Under the pieces are notes generated by a model. That model made no database searches, had not been told where the DNA came from, and worked only from the letters and a program-made list of their open reading frames with translations. A program made the translations under genes and the position numbers. This document shows positions 10,100-30,666 of a DNA stretch of 30,971 bases, one piece after another; the stretch's first letter is position 1, and every line of letters begins with the position of its first letter. This DNA comes from a virus. The stretch spans positions 1-30,971 of IMG/VR virus record IMGVR_UViG_3300025840_000158; one strand, given 5' to 3'.

Positions 10100-10504
10100 C
10101 TAATTAAACTGCTTACGCAGATAAAGGATAACAGTGTACGTGTCGGCAGTCGTGGCCCCAACAGTCGTAAACTTGATATCACCATTTTTACCAGTACCGG
10201 CGTTATTAGTAAGTCCGCCGAATATGGTATAGTCGTGGTTTCCGCTCTGGTTCTCGCCCAGCTCAATGCAGAACTGGTCGGAAGTGGCATCCCAAAGGAT
10301 CTGCACCTTCATACCAATGCACTGCCACCAGATACGCTCGATGACGACGCCCGTGCAGGCGTCGCCATCCGCGCTAGAAGCAAGAGCGGATACATCCACC
10401 TTAGTCACAGCACTCTCGCCGGTTCCGTCCGAAATATTGGTGAATTTCATCACCGCATACTTAGGACCATCGGAAAGAGTCTGGGATGTTACCGCATCAG
10501 CCAT
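10100..10504 (-). CDS. Predicted virion structural protein
   Basis: These 134 residues start MADAVTSQTLSDGPKYAVMKFTNISDGTGESAVTKVDVS. The middle (IERIWWQCIGMKVQILWDATSD) and the end (TYTVILYLRKQFN) are typical beta strands of a compact jelly-roll-like domain. The gene lies between two other presumed surface proteins, 12-14 bases from each. The family is widespread in marine phages next to the MCP (from memory). A minor capsid or decoration protein is the best guess. Confidence 0.8.
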   Translation of the reverse strand: MADAVTSQTLSDGPKYAVMKFTNISDGTGESAVTKVDVSALASSADGDACTGVVIERIWWQCIGMKVQILWDATSDQFCIELGENQSGNHDYTIFGGLTNNAGTGKNGDIKFTTVGATTADTYTVILYLRKQFN

Positions 10505-17190: not shown

Positions 17191-19632
17191 TCACTGCCCT
17201 CTCTGCTGTTTGAGTAATTCACGTTCCATCGCAGACTGAATACGCGCCTGCGTCTGCTTCTCTTGCGACGCCAATCTTTGCTGGAACTGTTCCGCCCTAA
17301 TCTGCTGATTCTGCGCGTCAAGCTGCAATTTGGCTTGGTCATTCTGTGCGTCCGCCTGCTCCGCCTGCGCTTTGATCTGGAGCTCCGCTTCCTTGAGCTG
17401 CACCAGAGGATCGGGGGCATCCGCGCCAGACAACTGACCAGAAAGTTCTTTGAGCTGCTGCATACCTTCCGCGATGAACTGAGCGGTAAGCTGCTCGATC
17501 TGGAGCATCTGTTCCTCGTCGGCGGGCTGCCCGCCCTGCTGCTGTACCTGTTGCAGGTAAGCAACAGCAGCCTGCTCCTGCGCGGCAATCTTGACATGCT
17601 CCATGACGTGCTTCTGCAATTCCATCGCGACAGGCGGAAGAGCCGATACCATCGGCGTAGAACCAAAAATCATATGAGCCATAATGTGCGCCTGATGGTT
17701 CTGGCCCTCAAATGCCTTCAACCGCAACATATCCAGAGCGTTGACATTCTCCTGCGCCGGATCAATCGGCAGCGGATCTTCGCTCGGGACCGTCTTCATG
17801 ATCCGGTCTACATCCGTGACGCCAAGCGCCTCGTACATATCCCGGAAAACTTCGTGCATGTTGTGCAGTTCCGGAGCCTGCGCGGCAAGCTGAAGTTTCG
17901 TCTGGGCCTGCAAGATGCGCTGCGCCTGACTAAACACATTCGGATTGCTGACCGGGATCACGTCCACACGGTCATCAAAGTCTTCCCGCATGATCTTCTG
18001 GTCGCCACCAGCGATGGAATACGGGTACTCCTGCGGCAGCGACTCGCTCATCACACGAGAAAGAATTTTAAACTCCTGCCGCATAGCGTAGTGCAAGCGC
18101 TTATGTACGGCGCTCATGACCCGCGAGCCTTGCTCGATCATAGCAATGGTCGTACCGACCGCCGCCTGATCGTTGCCGTCCCCAACCTTCAGATCAGTAA
18201 TCGTCGCAAACCGCTGGCCCGCCTGAACCACAAAACCAAGAAGATTGAACAGGGTCTGGTCGGGGCCCTTGAACGGCAGCGGCATAAGGCTGTCACGAAT
18301 AGCCCCTCCGGGAGCGTCCACATCACGGAACTCACCGGGCTGAAGCGGGTCATTGTCGTCCCTGATACGCAGTCCTCGGGCTTTAAAGCCCGCCGGGAGA
18401 TTGGACAGCGTACCGGCGTCAATAAGCTGCCTCAGTGCCGCCGTGGCGGTCCGTGACAGACCGCCAATAGTGTGGATTAGACCAAGGCCATAGAAGCCAA
18501 AGCCGGGAAGGAACTTGAAGTGCGTGAAATACGCAATCTTACGCTTTTTCTCATCGTCTTCGCGATAATTGCGCCGAATTGACAAAACCTGACCGTTATC
18601 CTGCGAAATCGTCACGATATACGGGATCTTGATTCCCGTCGGCTGGCCGTCCTCGTCAGTATCTTCGTACCCCTCAAGGTCCAGATCAACGTGGCATTCA
18701 AGGATTGTGCAGTCGTAATCAACCTGCGACGGCTCAAAACCCTCAATCCGGTCCATCTCTTCACTCAGGCTGCTCATCTCAGCCTGCGCCGGAATAACCT
18801 CGACGTCTCGGTAAAACCCGGCAACCTGATTCTTCCGCAAATCGTTCAGAGACATGCGGACAACCTGCGTGATATTCGGGCAAGTCTCCAAATCAGCCGT
18901 CTCATACGGCACAACAAGGTTCTCGGCCGGGACAAACCGCGACACCGCCCGGCCCAAGGTCTCGTCATAATACGTCTTCTTAAACGTCGAACCCGCCAAC
19001 GGCAGATAGAACAGCATCTGATCCATGTCAGGCGTGTATTCTTCCATCACATTCGTGACGTAATAATTCATGAACTGCTTGACGCGATGGGCCTGCTCGA
19101 CCTTCGCCCGCGTCTCCTTGCCCATAACGACAGTCCGGACAGGACCCGACGGCGGCAAAAGCTCATTGAAAGCCTGCGCCTGAAACTGCGTCGCCGCTTC
19201 CGCCAGAAGCGGATGTGTCACACCAGAAGCCCCGCGGAACGGCTGCGTCCGCTCCTCATACGTAAAACCAAGAAGCTCAAGCCCGTTCGAATAAGTCTCC
19301 TCCCACTCTTGGCGACTCGCCTTATTGGAATCAAACTCACCCATAAGCTCGCTCGAAATACGACCAAGCTCGCGATCCGGTATTTCTTCCGCCAGATTCG
19401 CATAAAAATCTTCATCCTCCCCGCGCTGATCCTGAGGGTCGAAATCAATCGTCACGCCGCCATCTTCGTCCGGCGTAATCTCAATCTCTCCAATATTCTC
19501 AGCGTCAATCATCGCCAGAACACGGTTCTGCGAGTCAGGAAGCTCCAGCTCTACCTCGGCCGCAAGATCCTCCTCGTCAAGCTGGGAAGGGACCCTCGTG
19601 TCCATCAAGCCACCAATAGGTGCTCTCGCCAT
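17191..19632 (-). CDS. Portal protein
   Basis: These 813 residues form the dodecameric ring through which DNA enters the head (family knowledge). The N-terminus is acidic and disordered to about 90. The core begins LAEEIPDRELGRISSELMGEF and contains QPFRGASGVTHPLLAEAATQFQAQAFNELLPPSGPV, FYLPLAGSTFKKTYYDETLG, YFTHFKFLPGFGFYGLGLIHTIGGLSRTATAALRQLIDAGTLSNLP and a crown/stem region. From about 700 it is a Gln/Ala-rich coiled coil (QIKAQAEQADAQNDQAKLQLD), likely the barrel inside the head. Length and motifs resemble portals of N4- or SU10-like podoviruses. Confidence 0.93.
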   Translation of the reverse strand: MARAPIGGLMDTRVPSQLDEEDLAAEVELELPDSQNRVLAMIDAENIGEIEITPDEDGGVTIDFDPQDQRGEDEDFYANLAEEIPDRELGRISSELMGEFDSNKASRQEWEETYSNGLELLGFTYEERTQPFRGASGVTHPLLAEAATQFQAQAFNELLPPSGPVRTVVMGKETRAKVEQAHRVKQFMNYYVTNVMEEYTPDMDQMLFYLPLAGSTFKKTYYDETLGRAVSRFVPAENLVVPYETADLETCPNITQVVRMSLNDLRKNQVAGFYRDVEVIPAQAEMSSLSEEMDRIEGFEPSQVDYDCTILECHVDLDLEGYEDTDEDGQPTGIKIPYIVTISQDNGQVLSIRRNYREDDEKKRKIAYFTHFKFLPGFGFYGLGLIHTIGGLSRTATAALRQLIDAGTLSNLPAGFKARGLRIRDDNDPLQPGEFRDVDAPGGAIRDSLMPLPFKGPDQTLFNLLGFVVQAGQRFATITDLKVGDGNDQAAVGTTIAMIEQGSRVMSAVHKRLHYAMRQEFKILSRVMSESLPQEYPYSIAGGDQKIMREDFDDRVDVIPVSNPNVFSQAQRILQAQTKLQLAAQAPELHNMHEVFRDMYEALGVTDVDRIMKTVPSEDPLPIDPAQENVNALDMLRLKAFEGQNHQAHIMAHMIFGSTPMVSALPPVAMELQKHVMEHVKIAAQEQAAVAYLQQVQQQGGQPADEEQMLQIEQLTAQFIAEGMQQLKELSGQLSGADAPDPLVQLKEAELQIKAQAEQADAQNDQAKLQLDAQNQQIRAEQFQQRLASQEKQTQARIQSAMERELLKQQRGQ

Positions 19633-20960: not shown

Positions 20961-22424
20961 CTAATAGTATGCGTGGACTTTAGCAGAGTTTTCTTCGTCC
21001 GCCCAGTCATCTGTAGGTAATTGCACAAAATTGCCCTGACGATACCTCATCAAAGCCTGTGTCATACTATCGACCAAGTCATCATGCTCCCCATTCGGGA
21101 ATGCCGCAACCTCTTCAATCATCTCGTCCGCAAACGTCTCGTCGGGGACCCAAACAAACCCGGCCTCAAACAACGGCGACACACTATGCACCCGCGTCAG
21201 CTTGTCGTTGCCACGAGACGGCGTAAAATTCACAACCGGAATACCCATGCTCCGCAACTCTTGGGTCAAAGGCATACCAGACGCCTTCGCTTCAATAATT
21301 ACCGTGTCCGGCTCCCAGAACTTGTAGTTATCCAGAGCAATGTCCTTTAGTTCCGGGAAATCCCATCGACCCTTTTTACTGTCCAATAAGATCAGATTAG
21401 GCCCACTCCCGCCCTCGTTTGGGTAAAACACACCCCACGTCGTAATCGCACTGTAGTCCGACGTCTCACGCTTGCTAAACGCCGTGTCATAACTCTGAAT
21501 CACATACTCAAGCTGCGGAACCGTCTCCTTCTCCCAACGACGCCACCATTCGCGCTTGATAATCGCGTTCTCTTCACCCGTCGGATTCTGCTGGTACTGC
21601 GCATTCCACTTGCTCGGAGGAATAGATGCGCGGACCGCGGTCAGATCTTCAAGACTCCAGAACTCCGGCCAACACGGCGTCTCGTCATCAAATATCGCAG
21701 GAAGCTCCACAATCTCCCACTGGTCAGCCAAAGGGTCCTTGGCCATGGCCCGCAGAAGCTGACCCGTCATATCCTTCTCAGACCACCGCGTCTGAACAAG
21801 AACAATGCTGCCGCCGGGCTGCAAACGCTGGCGAGGACCGCCCGTGTACCACTCCCACGCATCGTCAAACCCGCTGTTCGACATAGCCGTCTGTTCCGAG
21901 TGCGGGTCATCAATGATAACCAAGTCACCACCACGACCCGCGAGGTTCGAACCAACGCCCACGGCGTAGTACATCCCACCTTTGGCCGTGTCCCACCGAC
22001 CAGAAGCCTTGCTGTCCGCCGCCAACCGAACGTCAGGAAATATCTCCTTGTACTCATCACTATCAATCAGGTTCTTCGTCTTGCGGCCAAAGTTAACCGC
22101 AAGCTCGGTCGTATGCGTCGCCTGAATGATCTTCATCCGCGGATTACGGCCCATCATCCACGCGGGGAACAGATAGCTCGCGAACTCCGACTTCGTGTGT
22201 CGGGGGGCCATGTTGATAATCAGGCGTTTTAATTCTCCCTTAGCCACACGCTCTAGCTTGTCGGCAATTATCTTGTGGTGCCTGCCCGCAATGAACTCGG
22301 GCCAAACCGTCTTGACGAAGGTCAAAAAATTATCTTGGCAGGCTTCGTTTTTCTCCAACTGCGCAAGGCGCAGCTCCAGTTTCAGCCTCTTTTCATCGAT
22401 TACTGGATTTTCAGACACTGCCAT
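20961..22424 (-). CDS. terL: Terminase large subunit
   Basis: These 487 residues form the ATPase-nuclease that drives DNA into the capsid. The Walker A-like loop is MAPRHTKS (72-79), the Walker B is LVIIDDPH (168-175) and the coupling motif is QTRW (211-214). The RNase H-like nuclease domain has candidate metal ligands D313 in SYDTAFSK, E378 in VIIEAKASG and D448 or D449 in GEHDDLVDS. The length is normal. An AAGGGG lies 6 bases before the ATG. A perfect parS palindrome lies 28 bases upstream of the start codon, in the presumed leader. Confidence 0.95.
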   Translation of the reverse strand: MAVSENPVIDEKRLKLELRLAQLEKNEACQDNFLTFVKTVWPEFIAGRHHKIIADKLERVAKGELKRLIINMAPRHTKSEFASYLFPAWMMGRNPRMKIIQATHTTELAVNFGRKTKNLIDSDEYKEIFPDVRLAADSKASGRWDTAKGGMYYAVGVGSNLAGRGGDLVIIDDPHSEQTAMSNSGFDDAWEWYTGGPRQRLQPGGSIVLVQTRWSEKDMTGQLLRAMAKDPLADQWEIVELPAIFDDETPCWPEFWSLEDLTAVRASIPPSKWNAQYQQNPTGEENAIIKREWWRRWEKETVPQLEYVIQSYDTAFSKRETSDYSAITTWGVFYPNEGGSGPNLILLDSKKGRWDFPELKDIALDNYKFWEPDTVIIEAKASGMPLTQELRSMGIPVVNFTPSRGNDKLTRVHSVSPLFEAGFVWVPDETFADEMIEEVAAFPNGEHDDLVDSMTQALMRYRQGNFVQLPTDDWADEENSAKVHAYY

Positions 22425-22451
22425 GGGGGCCCCTTAGAATTATTCTAGAAA

Positions 22452-22467
22452 TGTTTCACGTGAAACA
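22452..22467. promoter_or_regulatory. parS: Perfect parS site (ParB-binding palindrome)
   Basis: The sequence TGTTTCACGTGAAACA is an exact 16-bp palindrome identical to the bacterial chromosomal parS consensus bound by ParB, and the symmetry extends to 18 bp with one more A and T. It is 28 bases upstream of the terL start codon. No parA or parB gene is seen in the window. A host ParB could bind it. Alternatively it is the operator of an unrelated regulator. Chance occurrence of a given 16-mer in 31 kb is of the order of 1 in 100,000. Confidence 0.8.
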
Positions 22468-22532
22468 TCGCTAAACGCGGACGATATAGGTAAATATACG
22501 ATATTAGGGCCCAAAATAAAATATTTGATTAT

Positions 22533-22547
22533 TGTTTGTGAGAAACA
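22533..22547. promoter_or_regulatory. Degenerate parS-like dyad
   Basis: TGTTTGTGAGAAACA has the same outer arms, TGTTT and AAACA, as the perfect parS site 66 bases away, but a different 5-base centre and one base less. It may be a decayed or alternative binding site. It lacks the central CACGTG, so ParB binding by the known mode is doubtful. Confidence 0.3.
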
Positions 22548-22720
22548 TGGCCCTAGCCGCCGTCTCTCCCCCCGGGGCCGCGTTCCGCGCGGCGCGGCCG
22601 ACGGACCGCCGGGCCCCGGCGCCTGACCCGATCGCGACGGGCCCCGGGCCGGGGACCCGGCGTCGCGGGCGGCGGGTCCGGGCGCCGGGATCCGATAGCG
22701 CCGGGCGCCGCCAGCCGCGC
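22548..22720. other. Very GC-rich non-coding stretch upstream of terL
   Basis: This region of the 22440-22782 gap is almost entirely G and C, packed with GGGCCC, CCCGGG and CGGCGCC words, and abruptly switches at 22547 to an AT-rich segment containing the parS site. Open frames here encode low-complexity Pro/Arg/Gly sequences and are not genes. It may hold a packaging signal or strong secondary structure; no direct evidence for either. Confidence 0.6.
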
Positions 22721-22754
22721 AAGAAAAACCCCCGGCGGAGTGATCCGCCGGGGG
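22721..22754 (-). terminator. Intrinsic terminator, 10-bp GC stem
   Basis: On the minus strand CCCCCGGCGG, a 6-base loop and CCGCCGGGGG are followed by TTTTTCTT. It lies about 30 bases after the stop of the 55-residue gene and should end the transcript of the accessory genes before the terL region. Confidence 0.9.
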
Positions 22755-22782
22755 CAGGCAACCCCGATACACGGGCCGGGGA

Positions 22783-26474: not shown

Positions 26475-26939
26475 TTATCTAGGACATATCAAGTCTATTA
26501 TCTGCTGCCAGTCGAAATGGCCTTCGGCATGGTAGGCGGGCTCGACAGCGGTTAGGCCTTCCATCTTCAGATCAACAGCCCGATCCCCGTGGAACAGAAA
26601 TACCTGCTGCGCCGCGTTTTTAGTCGGCACCTTCTTCACCAGCACCCAAACACTAGCGCGGCGGTGGTTTACCAACCACGCGACTTGATGCGGGCGCAAC
26701 TCGACCGCGTTGCCCGCAGTGGCCTTCAGCTCGACGAAGTGAAAAGCACCACGCTCGTCACAGATCAGGACGTCCGGTATCCCCGGCGTCGCCCACGTCT
26801 CCAGCCTCGTCGTATTCAGGTTCCGGTCCGTCTTCGCTAGACCTTCCTTCATTTGCCTCCAGAAGCCTGCTTCGCGCTTTTGCGCGGTTGCCGGAATTGC
26901 TCTCTCCCTCTGGGGTAACATCAATCGTGATCGGGGCAT
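26475..26939 (-). CDS. VRR-NUC-like nuclease overlapping terS
   Basis: These up to 154 residues show the PD-(D/E)XK pattern of VRR-NUC enzymes: TRLETWATPGIPDVLICDER with G-I-P-D (D56), then FHFVELKAT (E70, K72) and ELRPHQVAWLV (Q85). Such enzymes cleave branched or nicked DNA in replication and repair. The start is uncertain. An ATG at 26939 makes it overlap terS by 182 bases, while the ATG at 26852 (residue 30, before KEGLAKTDRNLN) gives a 95-base overlap and a GGAGG only 3 bases away. The family-like part begins near FWRQMKEGL, so at least the shorter overlap is real. Confidence 0.8.
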   Translation of the reverse strand: MPRSRLMLPQRERAIPATAQKREAGFWRQMKEGLAKTDRNLNTTRLETWATPGIPDVLICDERGAFHFVELKATAGNAVELRPHQVAWLVNHRRASVWVLVKKVPTKNAAQQVFLFHGDRAVDLKMEGLTAVEPAYHAEGHFDWQQIIDLICPR

Positions 26940-27438
26940 ACTGGTTCTTAATCTCCTCTAGGGCCTTCAAAACCTCTTCCTTACTCATGCTATCGATGGA
27001 GCCATGCCGGATTTCGGATTTGCTGACATAGATATTGCCCTGCGCCTGTCCTCGGCGGTACTCGGCTTGAACGGCTGCCGAATAAGCTCCGTTCTGCAAC
27101 GCCATGTCGCGGATAATCTGCAAGTCTCGGACATGCCGCTTGTAACTAATGCCGTACTTTTCATCTAGCTCGTCCCGGTAGGCGCGGATCGCGGCACAGA
27201 CATGGGGGCTGACGTTCGGGTTTGTCAGCTCATATGCGCGACTGTGGGCAGACCCCGCCGTGTATCCGGCATTGATTGCGGCTTCACGGAGAGTGATCTG
27301 GCCGTCCTTCGATACAAGCTCTTTAACGAATAGTTCTTGGCGTCGGGTCAGTGGGGTATTTACAGAGACCGGGGGGCGACCAGTCCTGCCCGTGAGAGGG
27401 CCGTTTTTCCCCGCCGGTTTCTTCTTTTTCGTCGGCAT
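26758..27438 (-). CDS. terS: Terminase small subunit
   Basis: These 226 residues start with a Lys-rich segment, then TPLTRRQELFVKELVSKDGQITLREAAINAGYTAGSAHSRAYELTNPNVSPHVCAAIRAYRDEL, the HTH region typical of terminase small subunits, which bind the packaging site. A helical middle and a disordered acidic C-terminus (PEPEYDEAGDVGDAGDTG) follow. It has a GGAG 8 bases before the ATG. It lies 4.3 kb from terL with accessory genes between, and its acidic tail is the part overlapped by the nuclease gene. Confidence 0.82.
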   Translation of the reverse strand: MPTKKKKPAGKNGPLTGRTGRPPVSVNTPLTRRQELFVKELVSKDGQITLREAAINAGYTAGSAHSRAYELTNPNVSPHVCAAIRAYRDELDEKYGISYKRHVRDLQIIRDMALQNGAYSAAVQAEYRRGQAQGNIYVSKSEIRHGSIDSMSKEEVLKALEEIKNQYAPITIDVTPEGESNSGNRAKARSRLLEANEGRSSEDGPEPEYDEAGDVGDAGDTGRPDL

Positions 27439-29791: not shown

Positions 29792-30238
29792 CTATTTCTT
29801 TATCGAAAAATATGGTGGTTTGAACTTTGGCACGGGGGCCGTGGGCCGCGGTTTATCCACGTAGAATATATGAGAACCAAATGTGGCGACAGGTGTCATA
29901 TTCTTTGCCCATTTCGGTTTAACCGAGGTCGAGTGGTAATGGGTGGCGTTGTGGCCGACGCGAACGCCGCTGAGTGCCATTTCTGCGATATCGCGGGCCG
30001 TGGACCACGCTTCGATTTCTTTGGGCCTTTCGGGCTTGCCGTCGCACCAGAATGAGAACTGGCAGTCCCAGCGCCGTGGGCCGCGGTCCTCCTTTACAAC
30101 GTCGCAGACATTGTTGGGGAACACGGGGCTCACGACGCGGTTGACCACGACCTCGGCCACGGCGAGCTGTGCTACGACGGGCTCTCCGCGAGCTTCGTAG
30201 TAGACCGCCATGGCGAGGCACGTGATCGCGGTTATCAT
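29792..30238 (-). CDS. Cell-wall hydrolase, SleB-like
   Basis: These 148 residues match the SleB/CwlJ-type lytic transglycosylase domain (Hydrolase_2). The motif AMAVYYEARGEPVVAQLAVAEVVVNRV contains the expected catalytic Glu (E15). Then come VCDVV, CQFSFWCDGKP (60-69), ATHYHSTSVKPKWA and FGSHIFY. The ATG at 30238 overlaps the TGA of the upstream gene. A TTG start 18 bases earlier is possible but unlikely. No signal peptide is visible. It could degrade peptidoglycan at late lysis or entry. It lies about 15 kb from the M15 endolysin, so the phage has two unlinked wall hydrolases. Confidence 0.88.
   Translation of the reverse strand: MITAITCLAMAVYYEARGEPVVAQLAVAEVVVNRVVSPVFPNNVCDVVKEDRGPRRWDCQFSFWCDGKPERPKEIEAWSTARDIAEMALSGVRVGHNATHYHSTSVKPKWAKNMTPVATFGSHIFYVDKPRPTAPVPKFKPPYFSIKK
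29839..29851 (-). repeat. GC 13-mer, copy 2 of 4
   Basis: CCGTGGGCCGCGG inside the SleB-like gene, near its 3' end. It is read in a different frame from the other copies, encoding PRPT, which argues that the DNA rather than the peptide is repeated. Confidence 0.6.
30074..30086 (-). repeat. GC 13-mer, copy 3 of 4
   Basis: CCGTGGGCCGCGG again inside the SleB-like gene, encoding RGPR in the segment between its VCDVV and CQFSFW motifs. Confidence 0.6.
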
Positions 30239-30666
30239 CAATGACCGATACCCCAAAGGATACCGCAGATGGCTCCGACGATAGCAGCAGTGACGAACAT
30301 GTGATTTATCCTCCGTTTAGGTTGTGTGTCTTCTTGGTAGTATTCAGCATCAGGTACTGTTGGGTCAATATGGGAATTTCTACCAGACTTCATGGCTTCC
30401 TCTTCCAGCTTTTGGTAGTACACCTGTTCCTTGATTTTCCAGTTCATGATCTCATCCGTGCTCCATCTGTTCACGATCCGTGGGCCGCGGACATGCGGGC
30501 TTTTGACCTTACGTGGGGCGGGGAATGTCCCTTTCTCCACGCGCCGGTACACCGTATTACGTGAGATACCGGCTGCGGCGGCCGTTTCATTGATGTTGAG
30601 TAGTTTTTTCGGAAACAAGACGGTCAGGTTGTCTGCCATTTGTTTTAGGTTTTGCTCCTTCGTCAT
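30238..30666 (-). CDS. HTH protein with C-terminal membrane helix
   Basis: These 142 residues have an AlpA/excisionase-like HTH at about 24-52 (NINETAAAAGISRNTVYRRVEKGTFP), then a basic patch (KVKSPHVRGPRIVNRWSTDEI) and a charged linker. The last 21 residues (HMFVTAAIVGAICGILWGIGH) form a hydrophobic helix long enough to cross a membrane. The combination suggests a membrane-tethered DNA-binding protein. It overlaps both neighbours by a few bases, so it is co-expressed with the wall hydrolase. Without data, a role as regulator or DNA anchor remains inference. Confidence 0.75.
   Translation of the reverse strand: MTKEQNLKQMADNLTVLFPKKLLNINETAAAAGISRNTVYRRVEKGTFPAPRKVKSPHVRGPRIVNRWSTDEIMNWKIKEQVYYQKLEEEAMKSGRNSHIDPTVPDAEYYQEDTQPKRRINHMFVTAAIVGAICGILWGIGH
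30478..30490 (-). repeat. GC 13-mer, copy 4 of 4
   Basis: CCGTGGGCCGCGG in the HTH-membrane gene, encoding RGPR in the basic patch after the HTH. Confidence 0.6.

Follow-up and report, generated by a model that had tools for sequence, protein, structure and literature searches.

The parS site and its surroundings

The window, a stretch of 30,971 nucleotides comprising positions 1 to 30,971 of the IMG/VR virus record IMGVR_UViG_3300025840_000158, carries at 22452-22467 the exact 16-mer TGTTTCACGTGAAACA, and the bases on either side extend it to a perfect 18-bp palindrome (22451-22468). The site lies in the leader of the gene for the large terminase subunit (terL). The features around it are listed below by coordinates and strand.

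17191..19632, minus strand: portal protein gene (PHROG 1216, E 1.6e-56), downstream of terL in the same late block
20961..22424, minus strand: terL, terminase large subunit, 487 aa (PHROG 38, E 2.4e-111), with its ATG at 22424
22425..22434, minus strand: palindrome GGGGGCCCCC abutting the terL ATG; relatives have GGGGCCCC or GGGWCCC
22425..22560, minus strand: terL leader, AT-rich and intergenic, which holds parS; a module conserved in relatives with and without the site
22452..22467, no strand (palindromic): parS TGTTTCACGTGAAACA, within the palindrome 22451-22468; equal to the co-crystal consensus (PMC7383237)
22533..22550, minus strand: conserved leader block CCATGTTTCTCACAAACA, a single copy in the window and present in each relative's terL leader
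22728..22755, minus strand: strong intrinsic terminator with a 12-pair stem, upstream of the leader in a GC-rich stretch
26758..27438, minus strand: possible terminase small subunit, a weak Terminase_2 match below the cut-off; also in the relative G003

The first-pass annotation of this DNA had taken the 16-mer for the consensus bound by chromosomal ParB, placed just before terL in an AT-rich segment next to a GC-rich stretch, and our analysis confirmed each of these points. The 16-mer exactly matches the 16-bp palindrome TGTTNCACGTGNAACA of chromosomal-type parS and is identical to the idealised chromosomal parS, TGTTTCAC-GTGAAACA, with which ParB was assayed for binding and crystallised, a sequence bound by every ParB orthologue tested (PMC7383237). 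The gene directly downstream is terL, with 27 bases between parS and the ATG, and parS itself sits in the AT-rich leader. No other match was present in the window even when up to 3 mismatches were allowed; shuffling of the window gave an expectation of 0.12 matches at this loose threshold, so that an exact parS match by chance would be far rarer.

Because the terminator (22755-22728, minus strand) splits terL from the upstream genes, terL probably has its own promoter in the leader between the terminator and the ATG. The leader block at 22533-22550, CCATGTTTCTCNCAAATATT, was found in relatives with and without parS and is perhaps part of a late promoter or a packaging signal. The short palindrome immediately 5' of the terL start is present in nearly all relatives, and similar palindromes occur throughout the late genes.

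Conservation of parS upstream of terL

Relatives were taken from IMG/VR by TerL alone, blind to the site, which yielded 74 upstream regions. Results showed that 43 of these contained parS with at most 2 mismatches (0 in 36, 1 in 1, and 2 in 6); in the other 31 the best match had 5 to 8 mismatches, and none was intermediate. Of the trials with scrambled palindromes, 0.07% came within 2 mismatches; the reversed site gave no such match. When diverged leaders were aligned on the site (1017 pairs), identity was 0.96 in parS and 0.29-0.30, the random level, in the flanks. Variation within the core was confined to positions 5 and 12 and was nearly always symmetric, with T/C paired with A/G; the invariance elsewhere is partly built in, since the sites were picked by a pattern permitting any base at 5/12, and a looser scan of the leaders gave the same picture. 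The published degeneracy of parS, TGTTNCACGTGAAACA (PMC7022226), fits the variation at these two positions. The leader sites thus combine selective conservation (96% versus 29% identity) with degeneracy of the parS type.

Absence or mutation of the site in close relatives was one of the outcomes that the first-pass annotation had named as refuting its reading, and the comparison went mostly in favour of that reading. Most relatives keep parS, often with TGTTTCACGTGAAACA and TGTTCCACGTGGAACA side by side as a tandem (-77/-53, the order varying), but about 40% have none at all, so the site is dispensable. No parS was found upstream of terL in the relatives HTVC027P, HTVC023P, 023Pt_psg01 and DSL-LC04, and parS is therefore not superfamily-wide.

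On a TerL tree of 66 relatives, parS was present in 36 (34 in the leader and 2 distal) and absent from 30, with at least 11 changes of presence; these counts are approximate, as one row without usable upstream sequence was scored absent. Inheritance by close kinship alone was rejected on the basis of these changes and of flanks that are random between clades. The position of parS within the leader also differs by clade, being after a promoter-like TATAAT-like block, in its place, or beside the CCATGTTTCTCNCAAATATT block. In three relatives (L078-L080) about 1 kb with a gene lies between the leader and terL, and parS stays with the leader. The relatives of 47-58 kb each hold a single copy, located in the terL leader, although this leader accounts for 4-7% of their intergenic bases and ranks only 5th to 10th by size among the gaps. 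Such fixation in a small leader suggests that placement matters in this marine family.

Multiple sites were seen around other terL genes. In a second phage clade from IMG/VR (TerL about 29% identical; L123, L096, L132 and L153) up to five exact parS lie within 1.5 kb upstream of terL, and in L134 and L162, of a TerL group at 52% identity, two exact parS flank terL, each about 2 kb off.

parS in other phages

At least 120 stretches in IMG/VR contained TGTTTCACGTGAAACA and at least 120 contained TGTTCCACGTGGAACA, whereas the reversed control had 1 hit. By crude gene calls, 44% of the sites from outside the TerL family were not within a called ORF; for random positions the figure was 14%. INPHARED was queried with the 16-mer padded with N, and exact copies were counted. 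The 16-mer was found in 286 records (Listeria, Microbacterium, Arthrobacter, Gordonia, Bacillus, Lactobacillus and others), the TTCC form in 58 (17 of them Pseudomonas) and the mixed form in 147 (Pseudomonas, Arthrobacter and Bacillus), while two control palindromes of equal composition gave zero records. Enterobacteriaceae are without chromosomal par genes (PMC7022226), and among the matches listed their phages were represented by only 10 Klebsiella records, mostly RaK2-like jumbo phages with an often intragenic site; the record counts are un-normalised, and Escherichia and Klebsiella phages are abundant in INPHARED. Mycobacteriophages, whose hosts have parS, were likewise outside the top groups among the INPHARED matches listed.

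ParB_N was absent from 13 of 14 sampled carrier phages, the exception being Microbacterium phage Quhwah, which has one. The genes next to parS varied. It precedes the scaffolding gene in Enterococcus phage Athos and the head protease gene in Bo-Finn, lies in the terminal repeats of Vibrio phage phi 3 and of P. syringae phages, and in other carriers is found in early genes or in genes of unknown function. Such varied neighbours, terminal repeats and early regions included, suggest a function independent of terL. Records with parS inside the terminal repeats are L417 (KP280063.1) and the P. syringae phages phiPsa315, phiPsa347 and phiPsa374, in which two copies may thus enter per genome. The 5.9-kb inovirus L422 (PQ006149.1, bajarodino virus 6) has six exact parS and no ParB.

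A chance origin of parS was rejected by the shuffles, the scrambled palindromes and the control palindromes in two collections. We regard the parS of the window as almost certainly a real, selected parS-type element rather than a coincidence.

Search for phage-encoded partners and for the host

The statement of the first-pass annotation that the window has no ParA or ParB gene agreed with our domain searches: ParB_N, HTH_ParB and AAA_31 were not detected in the window, which is an incomplete genome. The relatives searched were likewise negative, for ParB_N (PF02195) in 22 TerL-family records and for HTH_ParB (PF17762), the ParA domain AAA_31 (PF13614) and the integrase domain (PF00589) in the 18 largest or best-known family records, and positive controls worked. 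With no ParB or ParA domains in the window or the searched relatives, a phage-encoded ParABS system of the phage-plasmid type was rejected. One relative, G003, resembles a virulent phage: it has genes for DNA polymerase A, for UvrD and SNF2 helicases and for a primase of the archaeo-eukaryotic type. A tRNA search for clues to the host found none. Scanning of GTDB genomes placed relatives in mixed MAG bins (Verrucomicrobia, Rhodobacteraceae, Maricaulis and others) that are probably binning errors, and for this reason no host is claimed.

Discussion

The conservation of the site, the control counts and the precedent of phage phi29 together indicate that host ParB very probably docks at parS in the cell. 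Recruitment of host ParB had been put forward by the first-pass annotation and, judged from sequence, is still the best reading of a selected parS without a phage partner. As a whole that annotation was supported in part; it missed both the presence of the site in many unrelated phages and the phi29/Spo0J precedent.

ParB binds parS, closes as a CTP clamp and spreads (PMC12704722, PMC7383237). We propose that the phage may keep a genuine chromosomal-type parS in order to load the ParB of its host. Host ParB dimers would bind parS, close as CTP clamps and slide over the adjacent packaging and head genes, and the clamps at the terL leader would damp late transcription as long as the cell contains few phage genomes. 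As these replicate, ParB would be spread over many sites and the late genes would be released. Coated with ParB in this way, the genome may in addition be positioned or partitioned, as Spo0J does for phi29. For this explanation as a whole, host-ParB loading with a local effect on late genes, we see the chances as evenly balanced. That timing or damping of late genes is the main effect in this marine family falls somewhat short of an even chance; it is favoured because parS is fixed in the terL leader and because of the repression at parS3/parS4 in P. aeruginosa (PMC5521831).

Positioning or partition of the genome is favoured instead by the scattered sites in other phages and by the phi29 case. 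Host ParB and ParA would carry the phage genome with the nucleoid and keep it in daughter or resting cells during slow or deferred infection, and the terL leader would be a convenient neutral place. phi29, with its four exact sites, provides a precedent (PMC9437464), plasmids can be stabilised by one parS together with par genes (PMC7022226), and parS lies beside unrelated genes in unrelated phages, including the inovirus with six copies. Against this, parS is fixed in the terL leader within the family despite larger gaps, and neither an integrase nor anything else pointing to a long-lived state was found, although phi29, too, is a virulent phage. We consider this rather unlikely as the main effect and rate late-gene timing slightly above it for this family. 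An improbable main effect is titration or SMC loading, by which replicating genomes would absorb host ParB, or SMC via ParB, and so disturb the host chromosome or help to compact phage DNA for its packaging. Many clamps can be loaded at each parS, ParB recruits SMC (PMC7333895) and parS adjoins packaging genes, but a decoy might be expected to multiply, and usually one copy is present per genome.

The leader location and an HTH_17-like protein encoded in the window at 30238-30666 would suit an operator for a phage-encoded regulator that recognises the same palindrome. We hold this to be very unlikely: neither ParB_N nor HTH_ParB was found in the family records searched, a phage regulator would not usually have just one site in a genome, and the same 16-mer recurs in unrelated phages, 13 of the 14 sampled being without ParB_N, for which a shared host factor is simpler. 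The palindrome might instead act as an RNA hairpin in the terL leader, as an attenuator or in translation control, rather than as a DNA site. In a folding run the leader folded somewhat better than shuffles (z -2.24); the palindrome gives a stem of 7-8 bp, and the symmetric 5/12 changes preserve its pairing. However, the loop bases ACGT are conserved, covariation is restricted to the position at which parS is degenerate, parS in one clade lies upstream of the promoter-like block or replaces it, and the exact 16-mer occurs at non-leader positions of unrelated phages, which makes the hairpin highly improbable. Chance or a relic of host DNA could appeal to the relatives without parS, but given the IMG/VR, INPHARED and scrambled-palindrome controls and the difference in identity between site and flanks, its probability is negligible.

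Returning to the loading of host ParB, a broader version of the proposal is that parS is a widespread, repeatedly acquired device of virulent dsDNA and some ssDNA phages without ParB, which loads the ParB of hosts with chromosomal ParABS; here it would be tied to the late packaging operon, with host ParB as a copy-number-sensitive gate. In this full form the proposal is doubtful. If it is true in many lineages, chromosome segregation proteins join the infection cycle well beyond phi29 and spores, and whether ParB is a helper, a delayer or a defender becomes a question for tractable hosts such as Bacillus, Pseudomonas putida and Ruegeria. For uncultured marine phages parS would be a predictor of host interaction that needs only sequence, and phages could serve as a test system for the effect of ParB spreading on transcription.

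Comparison with known systems

Exploitation of host ParB by a phage is already known from phi29. The open-licence literature searched contained no report of host-type parS in phages, and both findings, a marine family whose packaging operon is linked to a single parS and the wide spread of parS among phages that lack ParB, appear to be new in that literature. With the parS of chromosomal ParABS systems the window site shares the identical 16-bp consensus and the same 5/12 degeneracy; it differs in being phage-borne, in being without parA/parB, in its usually single copy and in having no demonstrated origin proximity. Phage-plasmids and extrachromosomal mycobacterial prophages carry partition genes of their own (PMC7157519) and resemble the window's family in having a centromere-like site on a phage genome. 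They encode ParA and ParB for their own sites, whereas the window's family has neither.

The parS3 and parS4 of P. aeruginosa, where ParB represses adjacent promoters, resemble the window site in being intergenic and beside promoters (in the window, the probable terL promoter); unlike it, they are chromosomal, near oriC and control host genes (PMC5521831). In B. subtilis, ParB affects transcription little (PMC5521831), which speaks against the late-gene reading. Another likeness is found in the CtrA sites of alphaproteobacterial phages ('lytic deferment'), in which a host cell-cycle DNA-binding protein is used through repeatedly evolved sites in promoter regions (PMC9437464). CtrA is a transcription factor, whereas ParB is a CTP-dependent clamp and partition protein.

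In phi29 (L425, NC_011048.1) four exact TGTTTCACGTGGAACA lie at 10445, 15903, 17243 and 18760. These are dispersed, with at least one intragenic, whereas in the window's family a single site, or else a tandem, sits in the terL leader; the host of phi29 sporulates, whereas the host of the window's phage is apparently marine with no sporulation known. What the two share is a virulent phage with exact host-type parS and no ParB of its own (none is annotated in NC_011048). In spores, host Spo0J (ParB) is reported to entrap the genome of phi29 (Meijer et al. 2005, cited by PMC9437464), and the use of host ParB by a phage through parS is thus a known kind of interaction.
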